A DNA stretch of 64,000 nt, taken from positions 186,001 to 250,000 of the forward strand of contig JABTUS010000002.1 of assembly GCA_015075305.1 (NCBI GenBank), in the 5' to 3' direction. Made by a program: the position numbers and the translations under genes. Of this stretch, positions 21,782 through 55,826 are shown piece by piece (position 1 is the stretch's first letter; every line of letters begins with the position of its first letter). The notes beneath the pieces are model-generated. The model made no database searches. It saw nothing but the letters and a program-made list of their open reading frames with translations, and had not been told where the DNA came from. This DNA is from Opitutaceae bacterium (lineage in GTDB: Bacteria; Verrucomicrobiota; Verrucomicrobiia; Opitutales; Opitutaceae).

Positions 21782-21836
21782 GGCTGTGAGGGCTGCAAGC
21801 GTCCGGAATTCGTTTGAAAAAACGAGGGGGCTCTTG

Positions 21837-21850
21837 TGCAAAGTATTGCA
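21837..21850. promoter_or_regulatory. Imperfect inverted repeat overlapping a LacI-family start codon
   Basis: TGCAAAGTATTGCA is a dyad with 5-bp arms (TGCAA/TTGCA) and lies in the 68-bp divergent space between sulfatase copy 2 and the LacI gene, its last base being the A of the ATG at 21850. The position suits an autoregulatory operator, but the centre lacks the CG usual for LacI operators. Confidence 0.3.
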
Positions 21851-23984: not shown

Positions 23985-24118
23985 GTGTATCCGAAATGGC
24001 CGCGTGCCAGTCTCCAACCTTCAGTTTCCGACCCAAAGGGGGTCCCCAAGGCGGAGACATGACAGCGTTGCCTCGTGGAGCGTCGACCCAACATCAGCGG
24101 ATGAAAAGGAAATATTGA

Positions 24119-24132
24119 CAAAAACCTTTTTG
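24119..24132. promoter_or_regulatory. Near-palindromic LacI-type operator, distal copy
   Basis: CAAAAACCTTTTTG differs from a perfect dyad only at its central two bases. It lies 111 bp (centre to centre) from the perfect site at 24228-24245 and overlaps a TTGACA hexamer at 24115-24120 that could be a plus-strand -35 element. Confidence 0.55.
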
Positions 24133-24227: not shown

Positions 24228-24245
24228 AACAAAAACGTTTTTGTT
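24228..24245. promoter_or_regulatory. Perfect 18-bp palindromic LacI-type operator over the gene start
   Basis: AACAAAAACGTTTTTGTT is a perfect dyad with the central CG of LacI-family operators. It spans the TTG codons at 24241 and 24244 that are the only usable starts for the downstream gene, so bound repressor would cover the translation start region. It lies 244 bp upstream of the divergent LacI regulator 2 start. Confidence 0.75.
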
Positions 24246-40051: not shown

Positions 40052-41367
40052 GGCTGGACCGCACCAAGGTATTCATAAAGCACCTCGGCGAGATTCGCCC
40101 CATAGTCCTCCCAATGCCGGCCGGACGTAAAGTCCTTCACGCCGGCGATCCAGTTGCTGGCGAACTCGTGCACGACCCCGTCAATGCCGAAACGCTCGAG
40201 CCAGCCGTCGCCAAGCGTGCCGGGATTGCGGAAGCTCGTGCTGGTTGAGCCATCGGTGAACCAAGTGTGCTGGCGCAGAAGCCTTTCCAGCACGGCCATT
40301 CGATCGCGGTAGCGCGTCAAGTCGGGTACGGACGGAGCGCTCAGGTGAAGTTGGCCCTGCTGATGGTCGTTGTGGAGCTCAAGGGCAAGGTGCGGCTTCC
40401 GCCCGGAGGCGATCATGCCCTCGAGCCACCTTTCGAGAGCCGCGTTTTCTGGAGCGCTGCGGGCGTCGATGGGGCGGTCCCAGCCTCGGTTGAGATCACT
40501 GCCAAGCGCGTTAAAACGCGTGCGGCCGAGCGCGACTCCGTCCTTGTTCGCCATGGGCATCGCGTAGACGCAATAGCGTTCGAGGAACCTCCTTGCGTCC
40601 GCATCGTTGGCCAGCAGACGGCGCACGAGGCCTTGCAAGACCCAGTTCCCCACCGGTTCCCAAGGGTGGGCGCGGGCCCGGATGAAGACGCGATAAGGCG
40701 CATGCAGATTGCCGATGCGGAGAATCTCCAGACCGCGGCCGAGGACCGTGCGGCCGATCGGCATGATCTTCACGAGGGGATGACCGCACACGGAAGCGAG
40801 GAAGCGGTCAAGGTCGGACACCCGATAGGGTTCGAGGCGCGCCACGTAAAGTTGCGGCCCCGGCATCGTGAGGTGGAGCCGAACCCGGTCATCAGGCAGG
40901 TTATCGAGTGAAACCCCGCGCCAGCTGCGGCCGTCCTCAGAGACAAGGACACTCCTAAAATACCGGCCGTACAGGCTGGGGCCGCCGTTCCAGACATTTT
41001 CAAGATTGCGAAACTCAAAAGTGAGCTTCGTGCCGGGTTGGGCTTGGATCAGGAAGTGCACATGGCCCGAGGCCCGGTTCGGCGACTCGCGCTCGTGATC
41101 GTAGATCAGATGCAGGTCAATCGACCCGTCCGGCGCCTGCTCATACCAGAGCGGAGAGGCATTTTCGAAACTGGTGTCTATGAAATCGAGGACTGGGATG
41201 CGTGGAATCCGCCTCGTCGCAGGCGCCTTTCCAGACCCAGGCTGGTCCACGGCCGATAGCATGGACGGCAAGGCCAGACAGAAAAGAAATGCCAGCAAGG
41301 CTGCACGGACCCCCGAGTGCGGTGGAGGCTGGCCGAAACAATAGGCTGGGCGCAATGGAAGCGGCAT
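40048..41367 (-). CDS. Secreted M14-family zinc carboxypeptidase with N-terminal beta domain
   Basis: 439 residues from the ATG at 41367, chosen for a signal peptide (VRAALLAFLFCLALPSMLSA); a start at 41427 would add 20. Residues about 50-185 form the beta-sandwich found ahead of cytosolic-carboxypeptidase-like M14 domains (IDTSFENASPLWYEQA). The M14 domain shows the zinc motif in RARAHPWEPVGNW (HxxE), substrate-binding NALGSDLNRGWDR and the third ligand in ALELHNDHQQGQLH, with GVVHEFASNW near the catalytic Glu position. A peptidase at the head of an esterase/alpha-galactosidase operon is unusual; it may strip peptide or amide groups from a glycoconjugate. Confidence 0.8.
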   Translation of the reverse strand: MPLPLRPAYCFGQPPPHSGVRAALLAFLFCLALPSMLSAVDQPGSGKAPATRRIPRIPVLDFIDTSFENASPLWYEQAPDGSIDLHLIYDHERESPNRASGHVHFLIQAQPGTKLTFEFRNLENVWNGGPSLYGRYFRSVLVSEDGRSWRGVSLDNLPDDRVRLHLTMPGPQLYVARLEPYRVSDLDRFLASVCGHPLVKIMPIGRTVLGRGLEILRIGNLHAPYRVFIRARAHPWEPVGNWVLQGLVRRLLANDADARRFLERYCVYAMPMANKDGVALGRTRFNALGSDLNRGWDRPIDARSAPENAALERWLEGMIASGRKPHLALELHNDHQQGQLHLSAPSVPDLTRYRDRMAVLERLLRQHTWFTDGSTSTSFRNPGTLGDGWLERFGIDGVVHEFASNWIAGVKDFTSGRHWEDYGANLAEVLYEYLGAVQP

Positions 41368-41679
41368 AACGTTGGGCTGAAGGGCGGTCGCGCCCGCGAT
41401 ATTCAGGGCAGCAGGAGCAATGGACAAGGGATCGAGTTGTCAGAGATTGAGGAAGGGACCCGAAGAACCTGGGTCTCCTGACGAACGATGCTTCCGGGCC
41501 GGGAATCAACTACCCAAATATTCGCCAAATTGCGTTTCAAATGACCACTTCCTGTCCGCGCGGGCAGGCCGCAGGCTTTTCCCTGGCGGCCGGCCAGAAT
41601 GCCCGGCGTGCTGCCAAGGGATTGTCGCAAGCTGCGCTGTTGGCGCTTGTCAACCCCGACCCCAGCGACCGACCTGGGA

Positions 41680-42921
41680 TCACGACCCGGCCGCTGCCCT
41701 GCCCTCGATCGCAATTCCCGACGCCAGCAACCGTCCGTAATCCTCATCGCTCACGCCGCATTCCGCCAGCAGCTCACGGTTGTGCTGGCCGAGCGCCGGC
41801 GCGGGCGTGCGGATCGCCCCCGGCGTTCCGAGCAGCCGCGGCACGACGGGATGCATCGGAAGCGGCTTCACCTCCTCATCGGGGTAATCAGACACGATCT
41901 CGCGCTCGATGAAATGCGGGTCCTCGAGAATCTGCGGAATCGCATAAATCGGTCCAACCGTCACACCAACCTTCTCGAAATAGGCGACATTCTCCCGCTG
42001 CGTGTGGCGGCTGATGTACGCTCCGATGATGGCATCGAGTTCCTCCGCATGCTTCACACGGTCGATGTTCGTCCTGAACCTCGGGTCATCGATCAGTTCG
42101 GATCGCCCGATCGCCTCAAAGATGCGCTCCGCCATGCCCTGCGTTGAGCCGGAAAGCGCCACATAGCCGCCATCACTGCAACGATACGCATTGCGGGGCG
42201 CGGAGTTTGTCGAGCGGCTGCCCGTGCGGGGCTTCACCGTGCCGTTGAGGCGATAGTTGGCCGCTTGCGGACCAAGTATGGCAAACAGCGGATCCAAAAG
42301 CGGCAGATCAATGACCTGTCCCTGACCGCCATTCTGCTCGACTGATCTGAGCGCGATCATCACCGCAGACGCACCATAGAGTCCCGCCACCCCGTCCGCC
42401 AGATACATCGGCGGAAGCACGGGTTCGCGGTCGGCGAATCCATTCATCGACGCAAATCCCGACATTCCCTCCACAATCGTGCCAAAGCCCGGACGCTGAC
42501 TGTACGGTCCGTCCTGTCCCCAGCCGGAAATTCTCACGATTACAAGCCGCGGGTTCAGAGCGAGAAGCTCCGCGGGGGCCAACCCCATTTTTTCCAAAAC
42601 ACCAGGACGAAAGCTCTCGATGAACAGCTGCGCAGTCGGCGCCAGCCGGCGCAGCAGGTCGATGGACTCGGCTCGGCGCAGATCGAGCGCAAGGCTCTTC
42701 TTGTTGCGCGCATAAATTTTCCAGTGCGTCGACACCCCCTCCGTCCGCCAGGCGCGCAGCGTGTCGCCTTCCGGTGGCTCAACCTTGATGACCTCCGCCC
42801 CGAAATCCCCGAGAATCTGCGTGAGCACATTGCCGGCAAACAGCCGCGAAAGATCCAGCACGCGAAGGCCGGTAAGCGGCCCGCGTGCATCGGGGGTGTA
42901 GTCGCGTTGCTTGAGCGGCAT
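41680..42921 (-). CDS. Family III CoA transferase (CaiB/BaiF type)
   Basis: 413 residues, cytoplasmic. LTGLRVLDLSRLFAGNVLTQ and LGDFGAEVIKVEPPEGD are the classic beginning of family III CoA transferases; Asp176 in MYLADGVAGLYGA is the expected catalytic Asp that forms an acyl anhydride. SGWGQDGPYSQRPGFG is also conserved. It moves CoA between organic acids; the acids cannot be told. Its ATG overlaps the stop of the CitE-like gene (TGATG), so the two are translationally coupled. A pair of CoA transferase and CitE-like lyase commonly activates and then splits a C4-C5 hydroxy acid such as malate, citramalate or mesaconate derivatives. Confidence 0.9.
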   Translation of the reverse strand: MPLKQRDYTPDARGPLTGLRVLDLSRLFAGNVLTQILGDFGAEVIKVEPPEGDTLRAWRTEGVSTHWKIYARNKKSLALDLRRAESIDLLRRLAPTAQLFIESFRPGVLEKMGLAPAELLALNPRLVIVRISGWGQDGPYSQRPGFGTIVEGMSGFASMNGFADREPVLPPMYLADGVAGLYGASAVMIALRSVEQNGGQGQVIDLPLLDPLFAILGPQAANYRLNGTVKPRTGSRSTNSAPRNAYRCSDGGYVALSGSTQGMAERIFEAIGRSELIDDPRFRTNIDRVKHAEELDAIIGAYISRHTQRENVAYFEKVGVTVGPIYAIPQILEDPHFIEREIVSDYPDEEVKPLPMHPVVPRLLGTPGAIRTPAPALGQHNRELLAECGVSDEDYGRLLASGIAIEGRAAAGS

Positions 42922-43772
42922 CAGGTTTTCTCCGAACCCGCGTGGGAAACAATCATCCGCGCCCGGCGCAGCGAGGGGGCGTCGATCATCCGGCCATCGA
43001 CAACAAACGCGCCGTCGCAGGATTTTTCCGCAGTCGCCACCACGCGCCGCGCAAAGGCAATCTCATCGGCGGTTGGTTGAAACACCTCGTTCACGATCGC
43101 TATCTGGCTCGGGTGAATGCAGGTCTTGCCCGAATAGCCGAGTCGCCGCGCACCCAGCGCCTCGGCGCGGCAGCCATCCGCATCCTTGATGTCCGCAAAC
43201 GCCGCATCGAAGGCCCAAAGCCCCGCCTCCGCCGCGGCCAGGCGCACCGCGAGTTGCACGTGCATCACGGCGGCAGCGTTCGCACGTTCAATGCCGGATG
43301 GATCGAACAGATCCACCAGTCCGAGCTGCAAACCGGCCACGCGCGGATCCGCCGCCGCAATTTCCGAAGCGAAGCGCAACCCGCGGGGCGACTCAATGTT
43401 CAGGAGAAGGCCGATCGGCCGGGAGATTCCGCACGCTTCCTCGATGCGTGCGAGCACTGCCACGGCCGCGTGCACCTCGGCGGGAGACTCAACCTTGGGA
43501 AGATTGATCAAATCTATTCGCGGCGAGACCGCCGCGGCGAGGTCGGCCTCGAAATGCGGCGAGCCAGTCCTGTTCACACGCACAATGACGATCTTGTCCG
43601 AGGAAACCAGTCCGGGTGAACCCAGCGCCGCCGCCACGTGTCTGCGCGCGGCATCCTTCTGCGCCTCAGCCACGGCGTCCTCAAGGTCGAATGACAGTGC
43701 ATCGGCGGCCGTCACAAGCGCCTTGGGAAAAAGCTCGGGACGCGAACCGGGGACGAAGAGTTTGCTGCGCAT
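42921..43772 (-). CDS. CitE/HpcH-HpaI-family CoA-ester lyase
   Basis: 283 residues. MRSKLFVPGSRPELFPKAL and ALSFDLEDAV begin the protein just as in citrate-lyase beta subunit-like proteins and malyl-/citramalyl-CoA lyases; LLLNIESPRGL carries the Mg-binding Glu, and GYSGKTCIHPSQI is the conserved CoA-binding tail. There is no citrate-lyase alpha or gamma gene nearby, so it is a stand-alone lyase rather than part of citrate lyase. It lies between the glycosidase-FGE-like gene (19 bp upstream) and the CoA transferase (overlapping), all one minus-strand unit behind the palindrome at 46039. Confidence 0.88.
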   Translation of the reverse strand: MRSKLFVPGSRPELFPKALVTAADALSFDLEDAVAEAQKDAARRHVAAALGSPGLVSSDKIVIVRVNRTGSPHFEADLAAAVSPRIDLINLPKVESPAEVHAAVAVLARIEEACGISRPIGLLLNIESPRGLRFASEIAAADPRVAGLQLGLVDLFDPSGIERANAAAVMHVQLAVRLAAAEAGLWAFDAAFADIKDADGCRAEALGARRLGYSGKTCIHPSQIAIVNEVFQPTADEIAFARRVVATAEKSCDGAFVVDGRMIDAPSLRRARMIVSHAGSEKT

Positions 43773-43791: not shown

Positions 43792-45951
43792 TCAAACGGA
43801 ATCCTTCACACAGCGAAATCCAAGCATGCCGCTGCGATCCCTGCCCGGACTCATCAGCAGGTACTTGCCGTGCTGGTCGAGCTGGTACGCCTGTGGAAAA
43901 TACCAGTGCGACGTCTGCGGCTGGTAGGCGCTCCCGCCGCGCAGCACCGCGGCCCGCGTGTGTTCATCCGCAAATTCATCCGTCCATTGCCAGACGCCGC
44001 CGACGAGATCCATGACGCCAAATGGACTCGCGCCGGCGGGATGCAGTCCGACATCCTCCGGCGGCACAAGCGTGCGCCCGCGGTTCGGAGCCGGCATGTT
44101 CGCGGGGTTCCAGTCATTGCCCCATGGATACAGCCTTCCGTCCGTGCCCTGCGCCGCGTACTGCCACTCCCACTCATGGGGCAGGCGTTTGCCGGCCCAT
44201 GCGGCGTACGCACGCGCATCCTCAAGCGAAACCCATGTGACCGGCTTGTTCTCCCATCCACGCGGAGGCGCGCCGCGTTTCCAATCGCGCAGGAAATTGT
44301 GATCGTCAGCCGGCCGGTAGCCCGTCGCCCGGACGAAATCCCTGAACGCCGCATTCGTCACCGGGTGGCGGTCGATGTGAAAGGCGTCGATCCTGAGCCG
44401 ATGCAAATGGGAGCGGCGCGGGGACGGTTCCCAAGGATACTGGACGTCAAGTCCGTCCCAGGTGAAACCCTCAATCTCAACGCCGGTCACCCGAAATTCA
44501 AACGTCGCCGATGGAATCCTTACCATGCCTTCCGGCGCATTGACAACGGGCTTGGTGCGGACGACGGGAGTCATCCGTTGCAGAAGCGGTCGCCACTCCG
44601 CGGATAGCGACCTCAGCGGCGCGCGTGTGAGCGCGCGGCGTTCCCGCAGAAACCCGTCCAGGTTCAATGGCCTTGCGCCCGGCTCGACGGCGAGCACGGC
44701 GCCAAACCCCCGTGGCTCAAGCGGAAACTCCAAAGTCGCCTGACCATCCTGCACCCGCGGGCGCAACTCGACGCCGCGCCAGGCATCGTAGTATTTCCGA
44801 GACTGCACATGGTCGACGCGCAACTGCCCTCCCGCCAGCGCGTACTCGTTTCGATTCACGACTGTCCAGAGCGTGGCCACTTTCCCCGGAAACATTGAGG
44901 CGAACACATTCTGCTGCAGCGTCTGCGCATAGGGTTCCCAGTCCAAACTCACGAGCAGGTCGGAAAAGCGGCGGAACAAGTGAGAAATTCTCCGGAGCGC
45001 CGCCGCATCGCGTGGCGTGAGCTGGTTCCAAATGCCCCAGATGTTCTCCCAGGCATTGTAACCTGTGCCGTTGAAAAAAATGTAGTGAAAGTCATTGGTG
45101 CGGTCGCGGCCCCAGCGGTTCTCCAGATTGGTCATGTGGCGGGGCTCGAGCCACTTCAACTTTGAGACCGGAAGGACGACCTCGCTGGGCAGGAGCTTGC
45201 CCCAGCTTTGAAGATTCCATGCCAGCGCCTCGTCCGACAGTGGAACCGCCTCCGGTTCGAAGACGAGCGGATGCCCCCGCGCCTCCGCCGCGTCGAAGAA
45301 TGCGCGGGGCACGCCGCTGTAGGTGTCGCCATTCACCCCGTCCGCCCCGATCGCCGCGGCCAGTTTGGCGATCGCCTCCCAGTCCGGCACGCCCGCCGGA
45401 CGCGTCCCGTTGTCCCACGGCATGGTCGGAATGAAAACCTTCACGCCGCGCCGGTGAAAGTCCCTCACGATCCGCTTCAATCCGGCCAGTCCTCCGGGCA
45501 GGTCGGCCGCGAGATCGAACTGATTCCGGTCGTCGATGCCGATGTTTGGATAGACATACCAGAGCAGCACGCTGTCGATTCCGCCGTACCGGCTCTTCAG
45601 GTCGTCGAGGTAGCGGTCAACCGTGTACCTGCGGGTGACGGGATCGTAAAAGTAACGGTCCTCGACCATCATCTGCGCATGGACGAAATTCCTCCGGGTC
45701 CATTGGAACTCCCGGCGCTCATAGTTCGCGCCGGAGTAGCCGATGCGCAGCAGGTGCTCGCGCCGCCATTCCTTGAAATCGCGCCGCCAGGCCGGGGCCG
45801 CCGCATTCACGTTCTGCCTCCAGTGGCCGATCGACTGAAACGGCCAGCCTGGCGCCCCGACCGGCAGCGGAAGGTGCGGGCCGTTGCGCGCGTGCGAAAG
45901 CTGAAACTCGGCGATGCGAGGTGACGGGGCGGCTTGCGGCTTGCGGTTCAT
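43792..45951 (-). CDS. Putative TIM-barrel glycosidase fused to an FGE-like (formylglycine-generating enzyme fold) domain without the catalytic cysteines
   Basis: 719 residues from ATG 45951, chosen so that the gene stops short of the divergent LacI gene and its operator; the frame is open further to 46125. No clear signal peptide from this start. Residues about 70-480 look like a barrel hydrolase: GIDSVLLWYVYPNIGIDDR, FHRRGVKVFIPTMPWDNG, GADGVNGDTYSG and HPLVFEPEAV would hold the acidic pair, but I cannot name a GH family. Residues about 490-719 follow the FGE-sulfatase fold (FHIDRHPVTNAAFRDFVRATG, LPHEWEWQYAAQG, PFGVMDLVGGVWQWT, VLRGGSAY, MLGFRC). The active-site cysteine pair expected after RGGS is absent, so it is unlikely to activate sulfatases. 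Confidence 0.78.
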   Translation of the reverse strand: MNRKPQAAPSPRIAEFQLSHARNGPHLPLPVGAPGWPFQSIGHWRQNVNAAAPAWRRDFKEWRREHLLRIGYSGANYERREFQWTRRNFVHAQMMVEDRYFYDPVTRRYTVDRYLDDLKSRYGGIDSVLLWYVYPNIGIDDRNQFDLAADLPGGLAGLKRIVRDFHRRGVKVFIPTMPWDNGTRPAGVPDWEAIAKLAAAIGADGVNGDTYSGVPRAFFDAAEARGHPLVFEPEAVPLSDEALAWNLQSWGKLLPSEVVLPVSKLKWLEPRHMTNLENRWGRDRTNDFHYIFFNGTGYNAWENIWGIWNQLTPRDAAALRRISHLFRRFSDLLVSLDWEPYAQTLQQNVFASMFPGKVATLWTVVNRNEYALAGGQLRVDHVQSRKYYDAWRGVELRPRVQDGQATLEFPLEPRGFGAVLAVEPGARPLNLDGFLRERRALTRAPLRSLSAEWRPLLQRMTPVVRTKPVVNAPEGMVRIPSATFEFRVTGVEIEGFTWDGLDVQYPWEPSPRRSHLHRLRIDAFHIDRHPVTNAAFRDFVRATGYRPADDHNFLRDWKRGAPPRGWENKPVTWVSLEDARAYAAWAGKRLPHEWEWQYAAQGTDGRLYPWGNDWNPANMPAPNRGRTLVPPEDVGLHPAGASPFGVMDLVGGVWQWTDEFADEHTRAAVLRGGSAYQPQTSHWYFPQAYQLDQHGKYLLMSPGRDRSGMLGFRCVKDSV

Positions 45952-46038
45952 CAAAGGGACATGGGGACTGGCACCGATCCACAGGCTTGCGGAAACAACC
46001 GGCAAAAGCCATCCAAACCTGCGCTGGCATCCGGCGAA

Positions 46039-46050
46039 GCAAACGTTTGC
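46039..46050. promoter_or_regulatory. LacI-type operator GCAAACGTTTGC, site 1
   Basis: Perfect 12-bp palindrome with central CG, located in the 206-bp divergent space, 88 bp ahead of the glycosidase-FGE-like gene start and 108 bp ahead of the LacI regulator 3 start. Identical in sequence to sites at 47206, 50130 and 50262. Confidence 0.85.
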
Positions 46051-46157
46051 CCGACCGGAAGCCCCTGTCGATGCAAATCGTGACTTGCCTGTTGCGGGCG
46101 CATGGCGGAGGGTGGCGTCCTGCATTCCGGCGGGCGCACGCGCCGTCCATTCCAGCG

Positions 46158-47162
46158 ATGAAGAAAAACGCCAGCCTGATCGATGTGGCCCGCCGGGCCA
46201 GGGTCAACATCTCCACCGTCTCGCGCACGATCAACAAGACGGGCAAGATCGGCGCCGACACCCAGGCCCGCGTGCTCAAGGCCATGCGCGAACTGGGCTA
46301 CAAGCCCAACCGCGTCGCCCGCCGGCTTCGCACGCGCGACAGCAGCAGTTTCCTGCTGGGTCTCATCATTCCCAACATCCAGAACATCTTTTTCGCCGAC
46401 CTCGCCCGAGGCGTCGAGGACGTCGCCTTCCGGAGCAACTATGCCGTGCTGCTCTGCAACTACGACGAGGACGAGGCCAAGGAGCGCTTCTACCTCGACG
46501 TGATGCAGCTCGAGTCCGTCGACGGCATCATCCTGCCGCCCATTCACGAGGAGGACGACGCCGTCCTCCAGGTCGTTCGCAACGGCACCCCGGTGGTCTG
46601 CGTCGACCGCAGCCTCGCCCGAGGCGGCCTCGACAAGGTGGAGATCGACAATCATCTCGGGGCCCTGCGCGCCGTCGAGCACATCATCTCCCAAGGGCAC
46701 CGCCGCATCGGCCTGATCGGCGGACCAGCCGACTCCTCGACAGGCCGCGAGCGTTTGCGCGGCTACAAGGATGCGCACACCCAGGCGGGCATCCCGCTGA
46801 AATCGGAACTGATGCGCTTTGGCGATTTCAAGCAGGACAGCGGCCAGACCCTGGCGCACGAGCTTCTAGGTCTGGCAAACCCTCCCACAGCGCTTTTTGT
46901 CTGCAACGGCCTGATGACCATTGGCGCGCTCGAGGCGATTGCCGCGCGCGGACTCAGGATTCCGAAACAGGTCGCCATCGTCGGCTTCGACGAACTGCCC
47001 CTCGCAGGCGTTTTCAACCCGCCACTCACCGTTGTGCGTCAGCCGGCCTACGAAGTCGGCAAATGCGCGGCAGAACTTCTGCTCAAGCGCATTGAGGATT
47101 CCGACCGCCCGGCGACAAGCCTGAAGCTGCACCCGGATCTGGTCGTGCGGAAATCGTGCTGA
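46158..47162 (+). CDS. LacI-family transcriptional regulator 3 (controller of the GCAAACGTTTGC regulon)
   Basis: 334 residues from ATG 46158, where the helix-turn-helix starts (KKNASLIDVARRARVNISTV, SRTINKTGKIGADTQARV) followed by hinge LGYKPNRVARRLRTR. The effector domain has FLLGLIIPNIQNIFFADLAR, GIILPPIHEED, RRIGLIGGPADSSTGRERL, ALFVCNGLMTIGALEA and VGFDELPLAGVFNPPLTVV, all standard. A longer frame upstream (to 45921) lacks homology and would run across the operator. The gene lies inside a cluster of four identical palindromes that fit a LacI protein, one of them in its own promoter region, so autoregulation is likely. Confidence 0.92.
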   Translation: MKKNASLIDVARRARVNISTVSRTINKTGKIGADTQARVLKAMRELGYKPNRVARRLRTRDSSSFLLGLIIPNIQNIFFADLARGVEDVAFRSNYAVLLCNYDEDEAKERFYLDVMQLESVDGIILPPIHEEDDAVLQVVRNGTPVVCVDRSLARGGLDKVEIDNHLGALRAVEHIISQGHRRIGLIGGPADSSTGRERLRGYKDAHTQAGIPLKSELMRFGDFKQDSGQTLAHELLGLANPPTALFVCNGLMTIGALEAIAARGLRIPKQVAIVGFDELPLAGVFNPPLTVVRQPAYEVGKCAAELLLKRIEDSDRPATSLKLHPDLVVRKSC

Positions 47163-47205
47163 GCACCAGCTCGCGGGAAAATGTTGCGCTTGACGCCGGA
47201 GCTGA

Positions 47206-47217
47206 GCAAACGTTTGC
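47206..47217. promoter_or_regulatory. LacI-type operator GCAAACGTTTGC, site 2
   Basis: Perfect 12-bp palindrome in the 81-bp gap between LacI regulator 3 and the PfkB gene, ending 26 bp before the PfkB start at 47244. It shows the kinase gene has its own controlled promoter rather than depending on the LacI transcript alone. Confidence 0.85.
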
Positions 47218-47243
47218 GTCACAGTCAGGCCCCTATTCCAATC

Positions 47244-48209
47244 ATGCCCTCCTCCCCGGTCGTCGTCGTCGGCAGCATCATGCAGGACCTGAGCCTCGCC
47301 TGCGCTGAGTTTCCCCTGGCCGGACAGACGATCTTGGGCCGCCTCAAGGTCGGACAGGGTGGCAAGGGCTCGAATCAGGCCATCGCGTGCGGACGCACCG
47401 GAGTCGGCACGACTTTCGTGGGCGCGATGGGGCGTGACGCCTATGCTGCGCAGGTTGAGGCGTTCTACCGTCGCGAGGGCATCGGCTGCAGGCTGGCACT
47501 GAAATCCGGCGTGCCCACGGGCACCGCGGTCATTCTTCTGAATCGCCGGGGCCAGAACATGATCGCGATTGATCCCGGTGCCAACACCCGGCTCGCACGC
47601 GCGGACATTCCTCCCGCCTTGATGCGCAACGCCCGCGTCGTGGTCGCGCAACTGGAGGCGAATCCCCAGGCCAGCGGGCACGCCCTGCGGCTCGCGCGCC
47701 GCGCAGGCGCTGTGGCTATTCTGAATCCCGCGCCCATGCGCGACGACTTCGATGCTTCGCTGCTCCGGCACGTCGACATCCTCATTCCCAATGAGAGCGA
47801 ATTTGTAGCGCTCGTGAGGCGCCTTGCAGGTTCACGTCGGACGAAGTTCGACGAGGCGGCCCTGCATCGGCTGAGTCCGGGGGAACTTCACGCCCTGTGC
47901 CGGCGGTTTGAAGTTCCCACCCTGATCATCACGCTGGGAAGCCGGGGCTGCTTCATTTCGTCTCCTGAGGGATCTCACGCTCTGCCCGCCCACCGCGGCA
48001 TGCGCGTGGTGGACACGACGGGGGCGGGCGATGCCTTCTGCGGCGGTTTTGCCGCAGGCCTCGTGCGTCACGATGGCGACGTTGTAGCCGCGGCGCGCCT
48101 CGGCACCGCCGTCGCCGCGCTATCCATCACCAAGGCCGGCGCCGCCGATGCGATGCCCACGCGGCGCGAACTGGAAAGATTCCTCAAGAAGCGAGGCGTC
48201 GTTTCCTAA
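47244..48209 (+). CDS. PfkB-family sugar kinase, ribokinase-like
   Basis: 321 residues from ATG 47244, which clears the operator. VVVVGSIMQDLSLACAEFP and GQGGKGSNQAIACGRTG form the substrate-binding beginning seen in ribokinases; VVDTTGAGDAFCGGFAAGL holds the catalytic Asp and anion hole, followed by GTAVAALSITKAGAADAMPT. It phosphorylates a furanose or pentose in the cytoplasm; next to a GH127 (beta-L-arabinofuranosidase-type) enzyme an arabinose or related pentose product is a reasonable guess. It converges on GH127 with a 4-nt stop overlap. Confidence 0.88.
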   Translation: MPSSPVVVVGSIMQDLSLACAEFPLAGQTILGRLKVGQGGKGSNQAIACGRTGVGTTFVGAMGRDAYAAQVEAFYRREGIGCRLALKSGVPTGTAVILLNRRGQNMIAIDPGANTRLARADIPPALMRNARVVVAQLEANPQASGHALRLARRAGAVAILNPAPMRDDFDASLLRHVDILIPNESEFVALVRRLAGSRRTKFDEAALHRLSPGELHALCRRFEVPTLIITLGSRGCFISSPEGSHALPAHRGMRVVDTTGAGDAFCGGFAAGLVRHDGDVVAAARLGTAVAALSITKAGAADAMPTRRELERFLKKRGVVS

Positions 48210-50059
48210 GGCGCCTCCCGCCGCGGCGCAAGTTGCAGCCAGGTCAGGCGCCAGGCTCCGTCCCCGCGGCCGCCCGCCTCGAAATAGGGCAGGAAAGTGA
48301 TGGCAGGGCGATAGCCGAGGTTGAGCGTGACTGGCAATGCACCGCTCTCGGTCCGCTCGGATCCCAGTTCAAGCATGCCTGGCGTTGGTGGTTCCGGCAG
48401 TCGGATCGTCTCCTCGGTCTTGAATCCATCAATTAGTCCTGTCGCATAAACCAGGGGACCGCAGGTTATCGCGACGTAGTCGAAGCGCAGCACCTCCTGC
48501 CTCACGTGCGAGCCGTCCGGTGCGCGCGACTCCTGCACATTGCGATTCATCCGCCGATGAAAGCGCGGAATCATGGGCAGGTGAAGGCTGACAACATCCC
48601 CAGCCTGCCACACGCGCTCGATTCGCGCGTACTCACCGGGCTCGATTGGAAAATCAACCGGAGCTCCATTGACTTCCAGTCGCGCTGAATCCGCCCACGA
48701 TGGAATGCGCAGGCGCAATCCCCAGCGCCCTTCGCGAGCAGGACGGACGAGGATCCTCACATCGCCTTCGAAGGGGAACCGCGTTTCCTGCACGAGTTCG
48801 ACATCTCCCGCCACCTTCGATGGGAGCACGGCCCGCCCCGCACAGTAAAGGTTCACTGAAAGATCGCCATCTTCCAAAATGCCGCAGGCCACCTCAGGCA
48901 GTTCCTCCAGCGCGCAAGGTCCACTTGACTTGCAGCATCTCCAATAGGTCGTGAAGACGCGCCGTCCGTTCGGAAACGAATAGTAGCACCAGTTGTCCCC
49001 CGCGGGCGCCTGTGCACCGAGAAGATCGTTGTAGGCGGACTTTTCGATCTCCTCCGCGTACTTTGCCGCTCCCGTGATCGAGAGCAGTTCACGGTTCAAT
49101 TGAATCCACGAAAACGTCGAGCAGGTTTCGACATAGCCATAAGGGCTGAACACTCCCGGCGGATTGAAGACCTCGCGCGATCGATGTGCCACGCCTCCCC
49201 ATGGTCCGCCACCGAGGGTCAGGTGATGGTCGCGAATGCTCTGCCAGGCGAGTTCGACCGCCCGCAGGTGCGACGGGTGGCCCGCCACCCGGTGGAGTTT
49301 GGCAAGTCCGACGAGATTCCAGCAGAGCTGATAGGCCTTGCCGGTCGCTATGAAAGCCACGTCAACACCTGCCAGCAACTGGCTGACAAGCTCCAGCGCC
49401 GGAGCGCAACTCGCCTGCCGAAGGATGAGTTCCGCCAGCTTGAGATAGCGCTGCTCGCCTGTGACGTGGTAGAGCTCCACGGCCGGATCCAGCAGGACCG
49501 TGGCCGAAAGCCCGTGATGATTGCCAAACCTTGTGATGTCGGCGCCCTCATCCCCCAGGACCCGCCAGCACAGATCGCCGATTCGACGGGCGGCATCGAT
49601 GAAGGCGCGCTGCTTCAGCACGCGGCCGCTTTCGAGCAGGCCAAGGATCAGGTAGCTGTGCACCCACACATCCCAGGTGCGCTCCGCGGGCGCGCCATCC
49701 CAAGTGCGCGAGGGCGGCCCCGGCCGGCAGGTGAAGCGCCTGCTCCGGGAATAGGTTCCCAGGTACCCGTCGTCCTCCTGAACACTGAGCAGATACTCCG
49801 CCACCCGCAGCAGATTCGAACGAAGGACCTCGTCGCCGGTTCGATCGACAGCGCGGGCCGCCGCAACCATCCACTTGCCGGCATGTTCGCCGTACCAGTC
49901 TCCCTCATTATTCCGCTCGCGGCACTCACGACAGAACAGCGCGATCGGAGGGCTGAGCTCATCGCGGATGAAAGCGCCCAGATGGGCGGACTGGCTTGCG
50001 GCGATCGCCGTGCCGAGCAGACCATCCAGGCGGATGCAGGCGGGTGAGGGGAATTCCAT
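48206..50059 (-). CDS. GH127-family glycosidase (DUF1680, beta-L-arabinofuranosidase type)
   Basis: 617 residues from ATG 50059; a TTG at 50116 could add 19. No signal peptide is evident, so it acts in the cytoplasm. The alpha/alpha6 barrel has NNEGDWYGEHAGKWMVAAAR and the catalytic zinc site: YVETCSTFSW (Glu and Cys ligands) and WRCCKSSGPCALEE (the adjacent Cys pair, one being the unusual cysteine nucleophile of GH127). A C-terminal beta-sandwich follows with LRLRIPSWADSARLEVNG. It releases beta-L-arabinofuranose or a similar sugar in known members. The gene is divergent from receptor 4 with two identical palindromes in the space between. Confidence 0.92.
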   Translation of the reverse strand: MEFPSPACIRLDGLLGTAIAASQSAHLGAFIRDELSPPIALFCRECRERNNEGDWYGEHAGKWMVAAARAVDRTGDEVLRSNLLRVAEYLLSVQEDDGYLGTYSRSRRFTCRPGPPSRTWDGAPAERTWDVWVHSYLILGLLESGRVLKQRAFIDAARRIGDLCWRVLGDEGADITRFGNHHGLSATVLLDPAVELYHVTGEQRYLKLAELILRQASCAPALELVSQLLAGVDVAFIATGKAYQLCWNLVGLAKLHRVAGHPSHLRAVELAWQSIRDHHLTLGGGPWGGVAHRSREVFNPPGVFSPYGYVETCSTFSWIQLNRELLSITGAAKYAEEIEKSAYNDLLGAQAPAGDNWCYYSFPNGRRVFTTYWRCCKSSGPCALEELPEVACGILEDGDLSVNLYCAGRAVLPSKVAGDVELVQETRFPFEGDVRILVRPAREGRWGLRLRIPSWADSARLEVNGAPVDFPIEPGEYARIERVWQAGDVVSLHLPMIPRFHRRMNRNVQESRAPDGSHVRQEVLRFDYVAITCGPLVYATGLIDGFKTEETIRLPEPPTPGMLELGSERTESGALPVTLNLGYRPAITFLPYFEAGGRGDGAWRLTWLQLAPRREAP

Positions 50060-50129
50060 CGTTTGGACCACGGGACGAGCCACGACAAAAAAGTTGACAC
50101 GCGGAGGCAAAACCAAAATATCACCGCGT

Positions 50130-50141
50130 GCAAACGTTTGC
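50130..50141. promoter_or_regulatory. LacI-type operator GCAAACGTTTGC, site 3, with an adjacent half-site
   Basis: Perfect palindrome 70 bp ahead of the GH127 start. A half-site ACGTTTGC follows at 50151-50158, 17 bp away centre to centre. Site 4 lies 132 bp further on (centre to centre), so repression by looping between them is possible. Confidence 0.85.
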
Positions 50142-50261
50142 CCGAAAGCGACGTTTGCCTCACCACCACCCCGACAATCTCAAATCCCGCAGGCTCAACC
50201 CCGATCCTCATCAGGCTGTCGCCACCGCCTTGCCCATGAAGTCATTCCGTCCAAATTTTAC

Positions 50262-50273
50262 GCAAACGTTTGC
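50262..50273. promoter_or_regulatory. LacI-type operator GCAAACGTTTGC, site 4
   Basis: Perfect palindrome ending 12 bp before the ATG of receptor 4 at 50286, where bound repressor would block the transcript start or early elongation. Preceded by an AT-rich CCAAATTTTAC stretch. Confidence 0.85.
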
Positions 50274-50285
50274 TCTCCACCCAGC

Positions 50286-52469
50286 ATGAAATCCAAACTT
50301 GCCCGACACCTGTCCCTCGCGACGCTTCTGTCGCTCGCCCTGGCTCATCTTTCCCCCTCCACCTTCGCCCAGGCCGTGCCTGCCGCTCCGCAGGACGCCC
50401 AGTCGAAGGACAAGGACAAGGACAAGGACGAGACGATCGAAATGCAGAAGTTCACTGTGACCACAGGCTACCGCTCACCCAAGGCGATCGACCAGATTCC
50501 CGGAGCGATCAAACTCATTTCCTCCACCGAGATTGCGCAGACCAAACTGCTGACGGACGACGCAACAGCGGTGCTTGCCCGAACGATTCCAGGCTATGCT
50601 CCAGCGACGCAGTCCATGAACAATACCGGTGAGACTCTGCGGGGACGCGTGGCTCTCCGGCTCTTCGACGGCATCTCCCAGACCACTCCCTTGCGCGAGG
50701 GGAGCCGGAACGGAACCTTCACCGACATGGATATCGTCGAGCGCATCGAGGTCATCAACGGACCCTCAGCCTCTGAGGGCATCGGCGCAGTCGGCGGTAT
50801 CATCAACTACATTTCCAAGAGTCCGACAAAGGAAGGCAGCGAGGCCGTTCTACGCACGAAATTCTCGGGCCAGGGCTATGATGACAGCTTCAACTGGCGA
50901 GTCGGGCTCAACTTTTTCCACAAGGCCGACAACAAGGACATCGTCGTCGGCACCTCTTTCAGCGACCGCGGCATGTCCTACGACGCCCATGGCCGCCGCC
51001 AGGGCATGAGCCAGAGCGGTTCGGTGAACGACTCGGACTCGCACAATCTCTTCATCAAGGGTGGATTAAACTTCGGGCCTGGCGAGGCTCAGCGGGTCAC
51101 GCTGACGATCAGTCAGTTTCATATTGAAGGCAAAGGAAACTACGTCATTGAACTGGGCGATCGTGCACGTGGCATCACCGATAGCGCGCGCCGGCAGAAG
51201 CCGCTGAACTCCAAAGCCGAATTCAACGACTTCAAGCAGTACGCCCTGGCCTACAATCACTCCAATCTGTTCGGAGGTTCGCTCAATCTCCAGATCTACA
51301 AGGCCAGTCAGGGCATGCGCTTCCTGGCTGAGGACGGCGCCGACAAGCAGGACCCCGACATAGCGCCGCTTGGAAAGCTGGTCGATCAATCGGAGATCAA
51401 TTCCCAGAAGAAGGGATTGCGCAGCTCCTGGTCGAACAAGGAGCTCTTCGGCGTCGCCGGTCTCGAGGCGAACATCGGCTACGACATCCTCAAGGAAACG
51501 GCCCAGCAGATCCTCGCGCTGACTGACCGCGTGTGGGTGCCGCCGATGAACTATACAAGCCATGCCCCGTTTCTGCAGACCTCGTACACGCGCGGTCCCG
51601 TGACAGTGAGCGGAGGCCTGCGCCGCGAGAACGGCGAACTCCAGGTCGACAGCTACACCACCACCTATTTCCGAAACCGCGTCCGCGTCACCGGCGGCAC
51701 GCTGGATTACTCCGAAACCATTCCCAACGCCGGCGTCATCGTGCGCTTGCCGCGCGACTGGTCCATCTTCGGCTCCTACAGCAAGGGCTTCACACTTCCC
51801 AATGTTGGCATTCCGCTGCGCAATGTGAATACTCCCGGCCAGTCTGTGGACGGCATTCTCGACCTGCAGGCTGTGATCGCCGACAACAAGGAGGTCGGAG
51901 TGACCTGGCAGGGAAAGATGGGCGGCTTCAGCGCCTCGCACTACAAGTCCTACTCTGATTTCGGAGTCAGCCTTACCGTGGATCCCGTCACACGCGACTT
52001 CGTCATGCAGCGCCGCCCGGTCGATCTAAAGGGATGGGAGTTTTCCGGGGAATTCCGCCCCAGCAAATCCTGGAGACTCGGTGCCAGCTATTCACGCGCG
52101 GAAGGCAAGACACGAACGACGGAAACCGGCCCGCTGACCCGGGAGATCGGCATGGCCTCTCTGAGTCCCGACAAGCTCAACCTCTCCGCAACCTGGAAAG
52201 CTACAGACGACGTCAGCGTGTCCGTTTTCATGGACAACCTGTTCAAGCGGGACATCAATGTCGGCGCTCCAGGCGAAGAGCACACCTCGGGCCTGACGCT
52301 CTTCCATGTGACGGTCAACTACAGCACGAAGTGGGGTGACTTCTCCGTGGGTGTGGAGAACGCACTCGACAAGTACTACATCCTCCCCTGGTCGCAGATT
52401 GACCAATTCCTGAACTACTTCGCCGGTCGCGGCCGGGTCATCTCCGTCGCCCACACGCTAAAGTTCTAG
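50286..52469 (+). CDS. TonB-dependent outer-membrane receptor 4
   Basis: 727 residues from ATG 50286, directly behind operator site 4; upstream codons in the same open frame belong to the antisense of GH127 and the operators. Signal peptide SLATLLSLALAHLSPSTFAQA, a DKDKDKDKDE spacer, IEMQKFTVTTGYRSP lead-in, plug domain about 60-180 (IVERIEVINGPSASEGIGAVGGI) and a barrel that ends RVISVAHTLKF. It is shorter than the other three receptors, closer in size to siderophore-type receptors, but its setting next to a propeller-SSS transporter (38 bp downstream) and GH127 argues for a carbohydrate ligand. Confidence 0.92.
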   Translation: MKSKLARHLSLATLLSLALAHLSPSTFAQAVPAAPQDAQSKDKDKDKDETIEMQKFTVTTGYRSPKAIDQIPGAIKLISSTEIAQTKLLTDDATAVLARTIPGYAPATQSMNNTGETLRGRVALRLFDGISQTTPLREGSRNGTFTDMDIVERIEVINGPSASEGIGAVGGIINYISKSPTKEGSEAVLRTKFSGQGYDDSFNWRVGLNFFHKADNKDIVVGTSFSDRGMSYDAHGRRQGMSQSGSVNDSDSHNLFIKGGLNFGPGEAQRVTLTISQFHIEGKGNYVIELGDRARGITDSARRQKPLNSKAEFNDFKQYALAYNHSNLFGGSLNLQIYKASQGMRFLAEDGADKQDPDIAPLGKLVDQSEINSQKKGLRSSWSNKELFGVAGLEANIGYDILKETAQQILALTDRVWVPPMNYTSHAPFLQTSYTRGPVTVSGGLRRENGELQVDSYTTTYFRNRVRVTGGTLDYSETIPNAGVIVRLPRDWSIFGSYSKGFTLPNVGIPLRNVNTPGQSVDGILDLQAVIADNKEVGVTWQGKMGGFSASHYKSYSDFGVSLTVDPVTRDFVMQRRPVDLKGWEFSGEFRPSKSWRLGASYSRAEGKTRTTETGPLTREIGMASLSPDKLNLSATWKATDDVSVSVFMDNLFKRDINVGAPGEEHTSGLTLFHVTVNYSTKWGDFSVGVENALDKYYILPWSQIDQFLNYFAGRGRVISVAHTLKF

Positions 52470-52507
52470 ACTCTCGCCGATTTTGTCGGCTTCGCTGCAC
52501 GCCTGCC

Positions 52508-54919
52508 ATGATGCGTCGTCTGACACGCTCGTGCATTCTTTTCTGCCTCGCATGGACAGCAGCCCATGCAGGCGCCGACAACCTCGTCACGGTCAGTACC
52601 GGATCCCTTCCTGCTCCTCCCGGGAGCGGACCGCTGCAGTGTCTGGCTGGGGCCAGCGGACAGCCGCTCGCCATTCGTGACGGAGCCGCCTGGGAGTATG
52701 ACGAGCGTGCGAAGGTCTGGAATCCCCTCGCCTTTCGCACGAGCGGCGCCGTGGCGCCCAGCCCGATCATTGTGGGCTCGGGTATCTGGCTCCTTACCGG
52801 TCAATCTGAAGACGGGATTGGGACGAGTCTTGTTCCCATCCTGGCACCTGCCGCTCCGGCGCCGATCCTGCCTTCGCTGCCGATCCCGCTGAGGCAACTC
52901 CGAGGCGCCACCTCGGGCGGCGCACTCCACCTCGCCGGCATCGATGGAAACGGCGCGGCCCACTGGTTGTCGCTCGACCTGTCGGTGGAGGGCGCGCCAT
53001 GGAAATCCCTGCCTCCATGGAGCGCATCGCCTCGCTCCATCAGCACCTTGGTCGCCCAGGATGCCTCGCTGCTGCTGACCTCGCCCGATGCGTCAGGCGA
53101 GCGCGACGAGGTCTGGCGATGGACTGCGGCGGACGGATGGCAGTCAAAGCACCTGCTTCCGGGGCGCGTCGTCACCGGTGCCGCACAGGCACTCGGACAG
53201 GCACACGTGATCTACCTCGTGCAACTACCGACCCTCCCGGACGGATCCCGGCGCCTGCAACTGGTCACCTTTCACACCGTCACGGCGACAATCGCCACGC
53301 AGGGGGCACCCTGGAACGGCGAAGCGCATCTCGGCGCAGGGTGGCGTCACGGTCTGATCTGGGATCGCCCGGATGGTTCCCTGTCCTCCGCGGAAATCCA
53401 GGGCGGAAAGGAACTGCTTCGCCCACTGGACTGGGTGATGCTCCTGGCCTACTTCGGCCTCATCGCCTGGATCGGGGCGTACTGCTACCGGCGCGAAAAG
53501 AAGCGGTCGACCGAGTCGTTCTTTGTCGGCAGCCGATCGATTCCCTGGTGGGCCGCGGGCATCAGCCTCTACGCCTCGAACTCAAGTTCCATCGGCTACA
53601 TTGCGACAACAGCCAAGGCATACACCACGAACTGGCAGTACTTCCTCAGCAACGTGGTCAATGTCTTCGCTCTCCTCTTCGTCGCCTTCGCCATTGTGCC
53701 GCTGCTGCGCCGCCTGCAGCTCGTGTCGGTTTTTCACTACCTGGACCAGCGCTTCCACCGCTCCGTGCGCATGTGCGCAAGCGCCCTGTGCATTCTCATG
53801 CACCTGGGCGGGCGCATGAGCGTCATCCTGTTTCTGCCGTCGCTCGCCATCTCGACCGTCACCGGCCTCGATGTCACCTGGAGCATCCTGATGATGGGCG
53901 TCGTCACCATCGCCTACACCGCCCTTGGAGGCATGAAGGCGGTGATATGGACCGACGTAGCCCAGGTGATCGTGAAGTTTGGCGGGCTTTTCTTCGCTCT
54001 GGGATTCATCCTCTGGGCGCTGCCGCACGGCACGGACGAATTCATCTCGATCGCGAGGGCGGATGACAAGACCCGCATGATCGACTGGAGCTTCGATCTG
54101 ACGAAGGCCACCATCTGGACGTTTATCTTCCTCCAGATCATGGAAACCGTGCTCACGTTTCCCAAGGACCAAGTGCTCATGCAGCGGGTCTTCGCAACCA
54201 AGTCCGAGCAGGAGGCGAGGCGCTCAGTCTGGGTCTTCGCTGTGATCGTTCTTCCCGGCAGCCTGATACTCTACCTTATCGGCACCGGACTTTACGTGTA
54301 CTACCACACGTTTCCAGAGCGCATGAATCCGCTCCTGCCCCACGACGCCACGCTGCCGCTGTTTGTCGCGGCGGAACTGCCCGCGGGGGTCACCGGTCTT
54401 GTGCTGGCCGGGCTTTTTTCCGCAGCGATGGGAACGCTTTCGAGCATCCTCAACAGCGTCTCAACCCTCGTGTCCGTGGATTTCTATGAAAAGCTCTCAA
54501 AGCATCCGAATCCGGCGACAAGCATCCGCATTGCCGAATGGGTGACGATCCTCGCCGGGGCCGTCGGCATCGGCTGCGCGCTGCTGCTTTCGCGCTTCAA
54601 CATCAGCTCCTACCTCGACCTCGCGATCGAGTTCGCCGGCCTGTTCGGCGGCTCATTCGGAGGCGCGTACACGCTGGGAATGTTCACCCGCCGAGCCAAC
54701 TGGCAGGGCGTAATCATCGGCATGGGAACGAGCTTCGCGGCCACGTTCGCGATCTGGTGGCACCACCTCGTGCATCCCTTCCTGTACCTCGGCATTTCCA
54801 TCCTGATCTCCATCGTGGTGGGCTGGTTCGCGAGTCTCTTCTTCCCTCCTCCGCCGGAAACATGCATCCAGGGCCTCACCGTCTTCAACGCGGGTCGGCC
54901 GGCCGCGTCAGGCGGTTGA
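52508..54919 (+). CDS. SSS-family sodium symporter with an N-terminal periplasmic beta-propeller domain
   Basis: 803 residues. A signal peptide (SCILFCLAWTAAHAGA) leads into about 290 residues of beta-rich repeats with WxxL/W patterns (AAWEYDERAKVWNPLAF, EVWRWTAADGWQSKHL), resembling kelch-type mutarotase (NanM-like) propellers. From about residue 305 (RPLDWVMLLAYFGLIAWIGA) a complete SSS transporter follows with KRSTESFFVGSRSIPWWAAG, MGVVTIAYTALGGMKAVIWTD and LFSAAMGTLSSILNSVSTLV. The exported domain may bind the sugar or convert its anomer before uptake. It forms a unit with receptor 4 under operator site 4, and its 3' end overlaps the convergent esterase gene by 35 bp. Confidence 0.88.
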   Translation: MMRRLTRSCILFCLAWTAAHAGADNLVTVSTGSLPAPPGSGPLQCLAGASGQPLAIRDGAAWEYDERAKVWNPLAFRTSGAVAPSPIIVGSGIWLLTGQSEDGIGTSLVPILAPAAPAPILPSLPIPLRQLRGATSGGALHLAGIDGNGAAHWLSLDLSVEGAPWKSLPPWSASPRSISTLVAQDASLLLTSPDASGERDEVWRWTAADGWQSKHLLPGRVVTGAAQALGQAHVIYLVQLPTLPDGSRRLQLVTFHTVTATIATQGAPWNGEAHLGAGWRHGLIWDRPDGSLSSAEIQGGKELLRPLDWVMLLAYFGLIAWIGAYCYRREKKRSTESFFVGSRSIPWWAAGISLYASNSSSIGYIATTAKAYTTNWQYFLSNVVNVFALLFVAFAIVPLLRRLQLVSVFHYLDQRFHRSVRMCASALCILMHLGGRMSVILFLPSLAISTVTGLDVTWSILMMGVVTIAYTALGGMKAVIWTDVAQVIVKFGGLFFALGFILWALPHGTDEFISIARADDKTRMIDWSFDLTKATIWTFIFLQIMETVLTFPKDQVLMQRVFATKSEQEARRSVWVFAVIVLPGSLILYLIGTGLYVYYHTFPERMNPLLPHDATLPLFVAAELPAGVTGLVLAGLFSAAMGTLSSILNSVSTLVSVDFYEKLSKHPNPATSIRIAEWVTILAGAVGIGCALLLSRFNISSYLDLAIEFAGLFGGSFGGAYTLGMFTRRANWQGVIIGMGTSFAATFAIWWHHLVHPFLYLGISILISIVVGWFASLFFPPPPETCIQGLTVFNAGRPAASGG

Positions 54920-55826
54920 GCACAAGCACCAGTCCCTCGACAAAGAGCGGACGCCACGCCCGCCAGTCGTGGCCTCCATCGATCACGCGCAATTCAGCAC
55001 GAATGCCAGGCACGCGCCGCAGCCGGTTGTAGAGCGAATGTGCCTCGTAGTCGAGATCGTGCCGGGCGAGAAGCGGATCGGCGTTGGCGTATTCGTCGTC
55101 GCCCACGCCGATGAATATGTCCAGCGGTAGCGCTTTTACCGCAAAATGCGGCAGAATTGCCGGATAATTTTTCGCAACATAGGTTTCATCCAAGAATCGT
55201 TCCCGGCCACGACCAAACGCACCGAACTCCCTCGCGCTCGAGTCCGGAGGCGGCAGCGGCACGTAAACCGCCGGACTAAGCACGATGGCCGCGCCAAATA
55301 TTTCCGGATGCGCCAGGGCAAAGCGCAGCGCTCCATAACCTCCCATGGAATAGCCCGCCACAAAGCGCCCGTTTCGAACAGCGCGTGTCGGATACTCGGC
55401 GTCGATGTGGGTCACCAGGTCGCCAGTGAAGGCACTTTCGACCGTCTCCCCCGGCGGAAGGCCTGGCTCGCCGCCAAACTCGGAATCGACATAGTAGCCC
55501 GCCCGGCGACTCGACGGCGCATCCGGCATGACGGCGATGAACGGCGGCACCCTGCCTTCGTGAATCAGCCGGTCCACATCCGGCTTTACCGTTGTCCACG
55601 CGCGGAAATTGTCCCCCCGCCCGTGCAGCAGGTACAGCACGGGATAGCGAACGGAACCATCCGCCACATAGGACGGCGGGAGATAGAGGAGATAGTCGAT
55701 CTCATGACCAAGCGCTTCCGACTTCGTTGATCGCGCAAGGATAATGCCATCCGCAGACCAAAGGTGTCCCCAGGCCAAGGCGACGAATCCGGAAAGGAGG
55801 GATGTCATTCGAAGTGCTCGCCTCAC
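54885..55826 (-). CDS. Secreted esterase of the PF00756 (esterase D/feruloyl-esterase-like) family
   Basis: 313 residues from GTG 55826 (ATG 55808 is the alternative). Signal peptide MTSLLSGFVALAWGHLWSA. PVLYLLHGRGDNFRAW is the oxyanion region, GYSMGGYGALRFALAHPE the nucleophile Ser, and VIDGGHDWRAWRPLF the catalytic His. It would take acetyl, feruloyl or similar groups off polysaccharides in the periplasm. The N-terminal codons ALR..T.LLSGF are repeated in a vestigial copy at 56765-56839, which favours the upstream start. It lies just outside the palindrome regulon, and I see no GCAAACGTTTGC site ahead of it. Confidence 0.85.
   Translation of the reverse strand: MRRALRMTSLLSGFVALAWGHLWSADGIILARSTKSEALGHEIDYLLYLPPSYVADGSVRYPVLYLLHGRGDNFRAWTTVKPDVDRLIHEGRVPPFIAVMPDAPSSRRAGYYVDSEFGGEPGLPPGETVESAFTGDLVTHIDAEYPTRAVRNGRFVAGYSMGGYGALRFALAHPEIFGAAIVLSPAVYVPLPPPDSSAREFGAFGRGRERFLDETYVAKNYPAILPHFAVKALPLDIFIGVGDDEYANADPLLARHDLDYEAHSLYNRLRRVPGIRAELRVIDGGHDWRAWRPLFVEGLVLVLNRLTRPADPR

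Follow-up and report, generated by a model that had tools for sequence, protein, structure and literature searches.

Four identical copies of a 12-bp palindrome, GCAAACGTTTGC, are set among sugar-related genes around the gene of a LacI-family regulator, termed regulator 3 here, in the 64,000-nucleotide stretch of DNA that was analysed (the window). The locus raises the question whether these copies are the operators of this regulator and, if they are, which pathway would be placed under its control. The genes for the CoA transferase, the CitE-like lyase and the GH13/FGE protein are close-packed on the minus strand, followed by those for LacI and PfkB on the plus strand, GH127 on the minus strand, and the receptor and symporter on the plus strand. 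The features are as follows:

41680..42921, minus strand: class III CoA transferase, most similar to the succinate-hydroxymethylglutarate/glutarate type (PF02515; PDB 4ed9, 9br7)
42921..43772, minus strand: CitE-like CoA-ester lyase of the HpcH/HpaI family (PF03328; PDB malyl-CoA lyase 4l9y, CitE 1sgj and 6aq4)
43792..45951, minus strand: predicted GH13-clan-fold domain fused to a C-terminal FGE-sulfatase domain (GH13/FGE; AlphaFold2 model)
46039..46050, no strand: candidate operator a, GCAAACGTTTGC, between the divergent GH13/FGE and LacI genes
46158..47162, plus strand: LacI-family regulator 3, HTH (PF00356, 56.2 bits) and periplasmic-binding-protein-like sensor (PF13377, 129.1 bits)
47206..47217, no strand: candidate operator b, GCAAACGTTTGC, between LacI and PfkB
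47244..48209, plus strand: PfkB-family kinase, closest to ribokinases (PF00294; PDB ribokinases)
48206..50059, minus strand: GH127 glycosidase (PF07944, PF20736; PDB 6ex6, 4qjy)
50130..50141, no strand: candidate operator c, GCAAACGTTTGC, ahead of GH127
50262..50273, no strand: candidate operator d, GCAAACGTTTGC, ahead of the TonB receptor
50286..52469, plus strand: TonB-dependent receptor (PF00593, PF07715)
52508..54919, plus strand: sodium:solute symporter (SSS; PF00474 at residues 338-739)
54885..55826, minus strand: feruloyl-esterase-like putative esterase (PF00756; PDB 7xrt; synteny)

A pattern scan of the window found exactly four exact copies of GCAAACGTTTGC, at 46039, 47206, 50130 and 50262, as a first-pass annotation had claimed, and no one-mismatch copy elsewhere in the window. 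Four two-mismatch matches were scattered over the window, one of them within the LacI gene itself. The annotation had expected such a 12-mer far less than once per 64 kb, and about 0.003 exact copies were computed from the base composition. Among the 18 distinct perfect 12-bp palindromes of the window only GCAAACGTTTGC is repeated, and in 100 simulated windows generated by a first-order chain every palindrome stayed at or below two copies. The word itself was found in the available text of one paper, on DNA topology. That each copy stands just ahead of a unit also held, as the site centres lie 93, 113, 32, 76 and 18 bp from the start codons of GH13/FGE, LacI, PfkB, GH127 and the receptor, respectively. 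In local LacI regulons, sites are mostly located 140 to 30 bp before the start codons (Ravcheev 2014, PMC4052901), a range that takes in the first four of these distances, with the receptor site lying nearer. The sites at 46039 and 47206 fall within the longest possible reading frames of their flanking genes; the starts at 45951 (GH13/FGE) and 47244 (PfkB) were set on the basis of the sequence and of the point at which the proteins of the relatives start aligning, and with these starts both sites are upstream of their genes. A promoter scan identified no sigma-70-like promoter adjoining the sites, with 0.4 expected from shuffled sequences.

The search for related loci returned 45 loci, 15 of which (L009-L023) carry regulator 3 orthologues with 77-90% identity, the other 30 having a distant LacI protein. 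L091 and L094 from other genomes were added, resulting in 17 relatives for the site count, from which L092, L093 and L095 had been dropped as being the same contigs as L011, L017 and L016. The locus of G074, whose cluster has four exact copies, stands outside this count. The 17 loci are not fully independent, as sites and coordinates nearly coincide between L013 and L014, and a single MAG is the source of both L014 and L023. The cluster is syntenic in all of them as far as the contigs reach, with only partial coverage in L021 and L016, and every one of the 61 sites carrying no more than one mismatch falls in a gap homologous to one of those in the window. A site ahead of LacI, in the gap of operator a, occurs in 15 of the 17 relatives (14 exact, one with a single mismatch) and in 15 of the 16 for which 200 bp or more is available there; L018 has no site in the ~205 bp available ahead of LacI, and L021 covers only 66 bp at this position. 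The gap of operator b between LacI and PfkB bears a site in 17/17 relatives (14 exact, three one-mismatch). The gap before the receptor bears one or two sites in all 15 relatives with data: 13 possess two, and L015 and L018 a single one on the GH127 side, operator d being absent in these two of 15. DNA looping between operators c and d was considered and rejected, as their spacing varies from 100 to 195 bp without a constant helical phase.

The 12-bp core is an even, CG-centred palindrome, to which a conserved purine and pyrimidine two bases outside are added, giving 16 bp in all. Among 57 sites, read in both orientations, A or G occupies position -2 in ~98%, with a pyrimidine at +2, and at the other flanking positions no base exceeds 50%. 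The esterase gene is syntenic in the relatives and has no operator of its own. Extra genes of the relatives encode a GH13 protein (L012, L013, L014, L091) or sulfatase-family proteins (L018, L023, L094). On the other side of the cluster, the region 37158-41427 contains an alpha-galactosidase-like protein with an NPCBM domain and a short glucuronyl-esterase-like protein adjoining an M14 peptidase. The downstream M14 peptidase and glucuronyl-esterase-like genes (39239-41427) were rejected as members of the unit, as they had no match in L009-L053 where flanks are available.

More distant loci were also analysed. The LacI proteins of the 30 distant loci are 30-37% identical to regulator 3, and in four of these loci (L028, L038, L040, L043; 33-35% identity) the exact 12-mer is located 55-56 bp before the start of their own LacI gene. 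The four proteins appear to be closely related among themselves. Beyond these four copies, the 30 loci contain no site with up to one mismatch. No such site was found in L116-L119, which have a GH13/FGE protein of 59-65% identity and no regulator orthologue, L118 and L119 being cut by contig ends. A fifth distant GH13/FGE locus, L120, carries GCCAACGTTTGC ahead of its own LacI gene (34% identity). Nine sister regulators (L082-L090) share 57-62% identity with regulator 3, and the operator form GTAAACG(T/A)TTAC precedes only two of them (L085, L087). A link between the recognition helix (ISTVSR vs IATVSR) and the form of the site is suggestive only.

Site and regulator were further compared across 150 family genomes, the window's own genome included. 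Ten genomes with an orthologue of regulator 3 (at least 77% identity) contain 39 exact copies, of which the cluster accounts for 37, compared to four copies of the reversed control in the same ten genomes. The 140 genomes without an orthologue contain 21 exact copies, which are spread over 17 genomes. In each of the four inspected out of these 17 (G006, G115, G123, G133), the copy adjoins another LacI gene; GCAAACGTTTGC is not private to regulator 3, and cross-talk between LacI regulators is possible. An orthologue of GH13/FGE (at least 75% identity) occurs in the same ten genomes, and a fragment of it in the incomplete genome G068. The 4.87-Mb assembly to which the window belongs (17 contigs, 97.6% complete) has five exact copies of GCAAACGTTTGC, four of them in the cluster, and a single exact occurrence of the reversed control word. 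The genome scan with one mismatch allowed, which the annotation had put forward as a check, found only one exact copy outside the cluster but no one-mismatch enrichment, with eight places up to one mismatch versus 16 for the reversed control. The one-mismatch genomic sites look like background because the reversed control has more places (16 vs 8). The three such sites were considered as regulon members and rejected, one lacking the central CG and two lying inside open reading frames.

As far as sequences can tell, a local LacI regulon is strongly supported by the copy number in the genome, the conservation of the gaps, the co-occurrence and the sites of the four distant LacI genes, and we put the probability that the four copies are the operators of regulator 3 at about 0.9. 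The annotation's proposal of a local regulon is thereby upheld, by the conserved gaps in 17 relatives and by the co-occurrence of site and regulator in 150 genomes, the binding itself being predicted. The conserved site preceding the regulator's own gene leads us to predict autoregulation. Regulator 3 would repress its own gene and four units, namely GH13/FGE-CitE-CoA transferase, PfkB, GH127 and TonB receptor-symporter, as long as no inducing sugar is available; we infer that it binds the sites, represses rather than activates and is released by the sugar.

The proteins of the cluster suggest what these units may do. The CoA transferase scored 256.7 bits against NF052585, below the cut-off of 750. 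SUGCT-type CoA transferases and CLYBL/CitE-type lyases act in the breakdown of itaconate and related acids, and the same two protein families stand side by side here; different from that system, no hydratase is present among the cluster proteins scanned, and scores remain below the equivalog cut-offs. The AlphaFold2 model of GH13/FGE (mean pLDDT 69.3, 50 sequences, weak at residues 235-287) places a barrel and sandwich resembling those of alpha-amylases at residues 56-424, with an FGE fold predicted for ~467-719, and on this model the N-terminal domain is assigned the alpha-amylase-like fold of the GH13 clan. No Pfam family, GH13 included, matched this N-terminal region at E 0.001. The protein belongs to a large family, as a comparison with its first 470 residues gave matches for 6308 of 7999 scored candidates. 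Xanthomonadaceae are among the 120 matches listed, with 59-65% identity for those named there. The best model for the PfkB kinase is TIGR02152 (ribokinase) at 242.8 bits, below the equivalog cut-off of 299.65. The catalytic domain of GH127 scored 132.5 bits in Pfam versus a gathering threshold of 24.9, placing the protein within the family, and the enzyme is probably cytoplasmic because no signal peptide was seen by eye. Known GH127 members are HypBA1 and the aceric acid hydrolase BT1003, with which it shares the catalytic and middle Pfam domains; it differs in scoring only 100 bits with the aceric acid hydrolase model (cut-off 950) and in that two relatives have an ADP-ribosylglycohydrolase-family protein instead. 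The N-terminal extension of the symporter, ~300 residues in length, reads as propeller-like.

Based on these assignments, a glycoside would enter via the TonB receptor and be trimmed in the periplasm by the GH13/FGE protein and probably also by the esterase, and the symporter would import the remainder. In the cytoplasm, GH127 would cleave a furanoside, and the sugar so released would be phosphorylated by PfkB, with ribose or a ribose-like pentose as its likeliest identity. The CoA transferase would turn a carboxylic acid part into a CoA ester, which the CitE-like lyase would split into acetyl-CoA and a second product. The acid may be citramalate, hydroxymethylglutarate or another candidate; the acid arm is deduced from the two CoA enzymes alone. 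Malate was not preferred, as it would need no CoA route.

The same set of genes was identified on plasmid pSFD01 of Sphingopyxis sp. FD7. Here, receptor (49% identity), kinase (37%), GH13/FGE (58%), GH127 (54%) and CoA transferase (31%) form one run. Across the start of the record, this run is adjoined by CitE (46%) and the symporter (44%), after which come a LysR-type protein and a carboxylesterase. Common to both clusters is the presence together of receptor, kinase, GH13/FGE, GH127, CoA transferase, CitE, long symporter and esterase. In contrast, on pSFD01 a LysR-type gene is next to the symporter and the LacI gene is ~9 kb off in another gene group, the CoA transferase is only 31% identical, and the carboxylesterase is of another family. 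The pSFD01 loci L096 and L098 have no copy of the palindrome with up to one mismatch, and two two-mismatch matches in L096 correspond to the chance level. As the gene set recurs on pSFD01 beside a different regulator gene, it is the gene set and not the regulator that is the conserved unit, which supports the annotation's reading of the cluster as one pathway.

With regard to the sugar, a ribose-like furanose is the leading guess, which we hold tentatively. In L019 (12048-13181) and L022 (12167-13171), genes of the ADP-ribosylglycohydrolase family, on opposite strands and with operators nearby, are present where GH127 is missing. The sister regulators L078 and L080 adjoin a nucleoside hydrolase and a PfkB kinase, and for L079 and L081, which are similar to them, the neighbours that were scanned had no match in Pfam. 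In the two loci scanned out of the nine sister loci L082-L090 (L085 and L088), ABC genes match best as ribose-type, below the cut-off, and in seven of the nine a second gene matches the sensor part of regulator 3 only, as a periplasmic binding protein would. The protein following the ABC genes of L085 scored 346.8 for inositol 2-dehydrogenase (cut-off 355), and this transporter may serve inositol; the guess of a ribose-like sugar was kept somewhat below even odds because of this gene. The annotation had suggested arabinan-type substrates, and a cluster serving arabinan or arabinofuranosyl glycans would agree with the name of GH127, beta-L-arabinofuranosidase, which several of its PDB matches carry. 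We consider this unlikely, as none of ten proteins scanned in or beside the cluster matches the arabinose isomerase or alpha-L-arabinofuranosidase families, the kinase is ribokinase-like, the gap of GH127 is occupied by an ADP-ribosylglycohydrolase-family protein in two relatives, and two sister regulators stand beside nucleoside hydrolases and two beside the ribose-type, below-cut-off ABC genes. Arabinan is not specifically supported, resting only on the GH127 family name, and the neighbours hint at a ribose-like furanose and, in one case, at inositol. Extending the ribose-like guess, the cluster might be a catabolic cassette, shared by two phyla under different regulator genes, for a ribose-like furanosyl glycoside bearing a hydroxy-carboxylic acid. 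GH127 would then act as a ribofuranosidase instead of an arabinofuranosidase, an ADP-ribosylglycohydrolase-family enzyme could take its place, and the acid would leave via the CoA-transferase/CitE-lyase branch; in this full form the proposal is doubtful. To our knowledge, such an acid branch is known from no glycan locus.

How far the regulon may reach beyond the cluster depends on the fifth exact copy of GCAAACGTTTGC in the genome (C6:20337). The annotation's statement that the word occurs nowhere else in the window is true, but it does not extend to the genome. The fifth copy is located 8 bp past the stop codon of another LacI gene, and downstream of it lies an operon of a TonB receptor, an SOGP-type glycoside phosphorylase and GH3 (L054, G000:C6, 1313-11443). 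The identical 12-mer and these glycoside genes would be in agreement with a wider regulon in which regulator 3 also controls this operon. We regard this as improbable, as the flanks, with C at -2 and G at +2, misfit the extended motif with the purine and pyrimidine of the cluster sites, and the position directly behind another LacI gene also argues against it. Of 19 other orthologues of that LacI protein in the 150 family genomes, 18 have a site with up to two mismatches in a stretch of ~4 kb, and such sites are also present where a regulator 3 orthologue is lacking, for example in G006 and G123. Most orthologues of this regulator bear more degenerate sites. Judged by these comparisons, the fifth copy most likely belongs to the adjoining LacI, leaving regulator 3 with the four sites of its own cluster. 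That a global LacI-type regulator encoded elsewhere, CcpA-like or PurR-like, owns the sites with regulator 3 as a bystander is very improbable, as the genome has no more than five exact copies and the cluster contains four of these, the copy number tracks the regulator 3 orthologue, and the site precedes the regulator's gene in nearly all relatives with sufficient sequence. In favour of this alternative stand the resemblance of GCAAACGTTTGC to PurR and RbsR operators and the proximity of regulator 3 to CcpA and PurR chains in the PDB comparison.

Another palindrome of the window, AACAAAAACGTTTTTGTT, is a perfect one of 18 bp at 24228-24245, ~230-250 bp upstream of a second LacI-family gene (23073-23996, minus strand) and where a GH65-type glycosidase frame (24229-27885) begins. 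It probably serves as a local LacI operator in its own right. At 24120 there is a similar word, AAAAACCTTTTT, which lacks the central CG. A frame with a LacI-type HTH (21790-22887, plus strand) overlaps the edge of a sulfatase frame (20255-22042, minus strand).

Under the preferred reading of a local regulon of regulator 3, the regulator is akin to the RbsR/PurR/CytR branch of the LacI family, from which it has its best NCBIfam scores (CytR 237.4, PurR 230.6, RbsR 225.8 and 224.6 bits) and whose operator word is very similar; different from that branch, it scores far below the equivalog cut-offs of 382-531 bits. PurR is an example of a regulator that kept its motif on arising from RbsR (Ravcheev 2014, PMC4052901). 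The local autoregulated LacI regulons described in that study share with the present one the CG-centred even palindrome, the predicted autoregulation, and the transporter and catabolic genes beside the regulator; they differ in that the term 'Verrucomicrob' has no occurrence in the main text as available. Regulator 3 likewise has the LacI HTH and the periplasmic-binding-like sensor, and its sites are even palindromes with a central CG, few per genome, adjacent to sugar genes and conserved in relatives. A local autoregulated LacI regulon is an ordinary, known kind of system, and the pathway is of more interest.

Within the library searched, no paper joined Opitutaceae or Verrucomicrobia, LacI regulation and terms for TonB or polysaccharide use, and the locus adds a well-bounded predicted regulon with its operator in a probably verrucomicrobial genome. 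If the exchange between GH127 and the ADP-ribosylglycohydrolase-family protein reflects a shared substrate, the specificity of GH127 would be extended. The operator would link seven catabolic and transport genes to one regulator, by which the pathway becomes directly testable.
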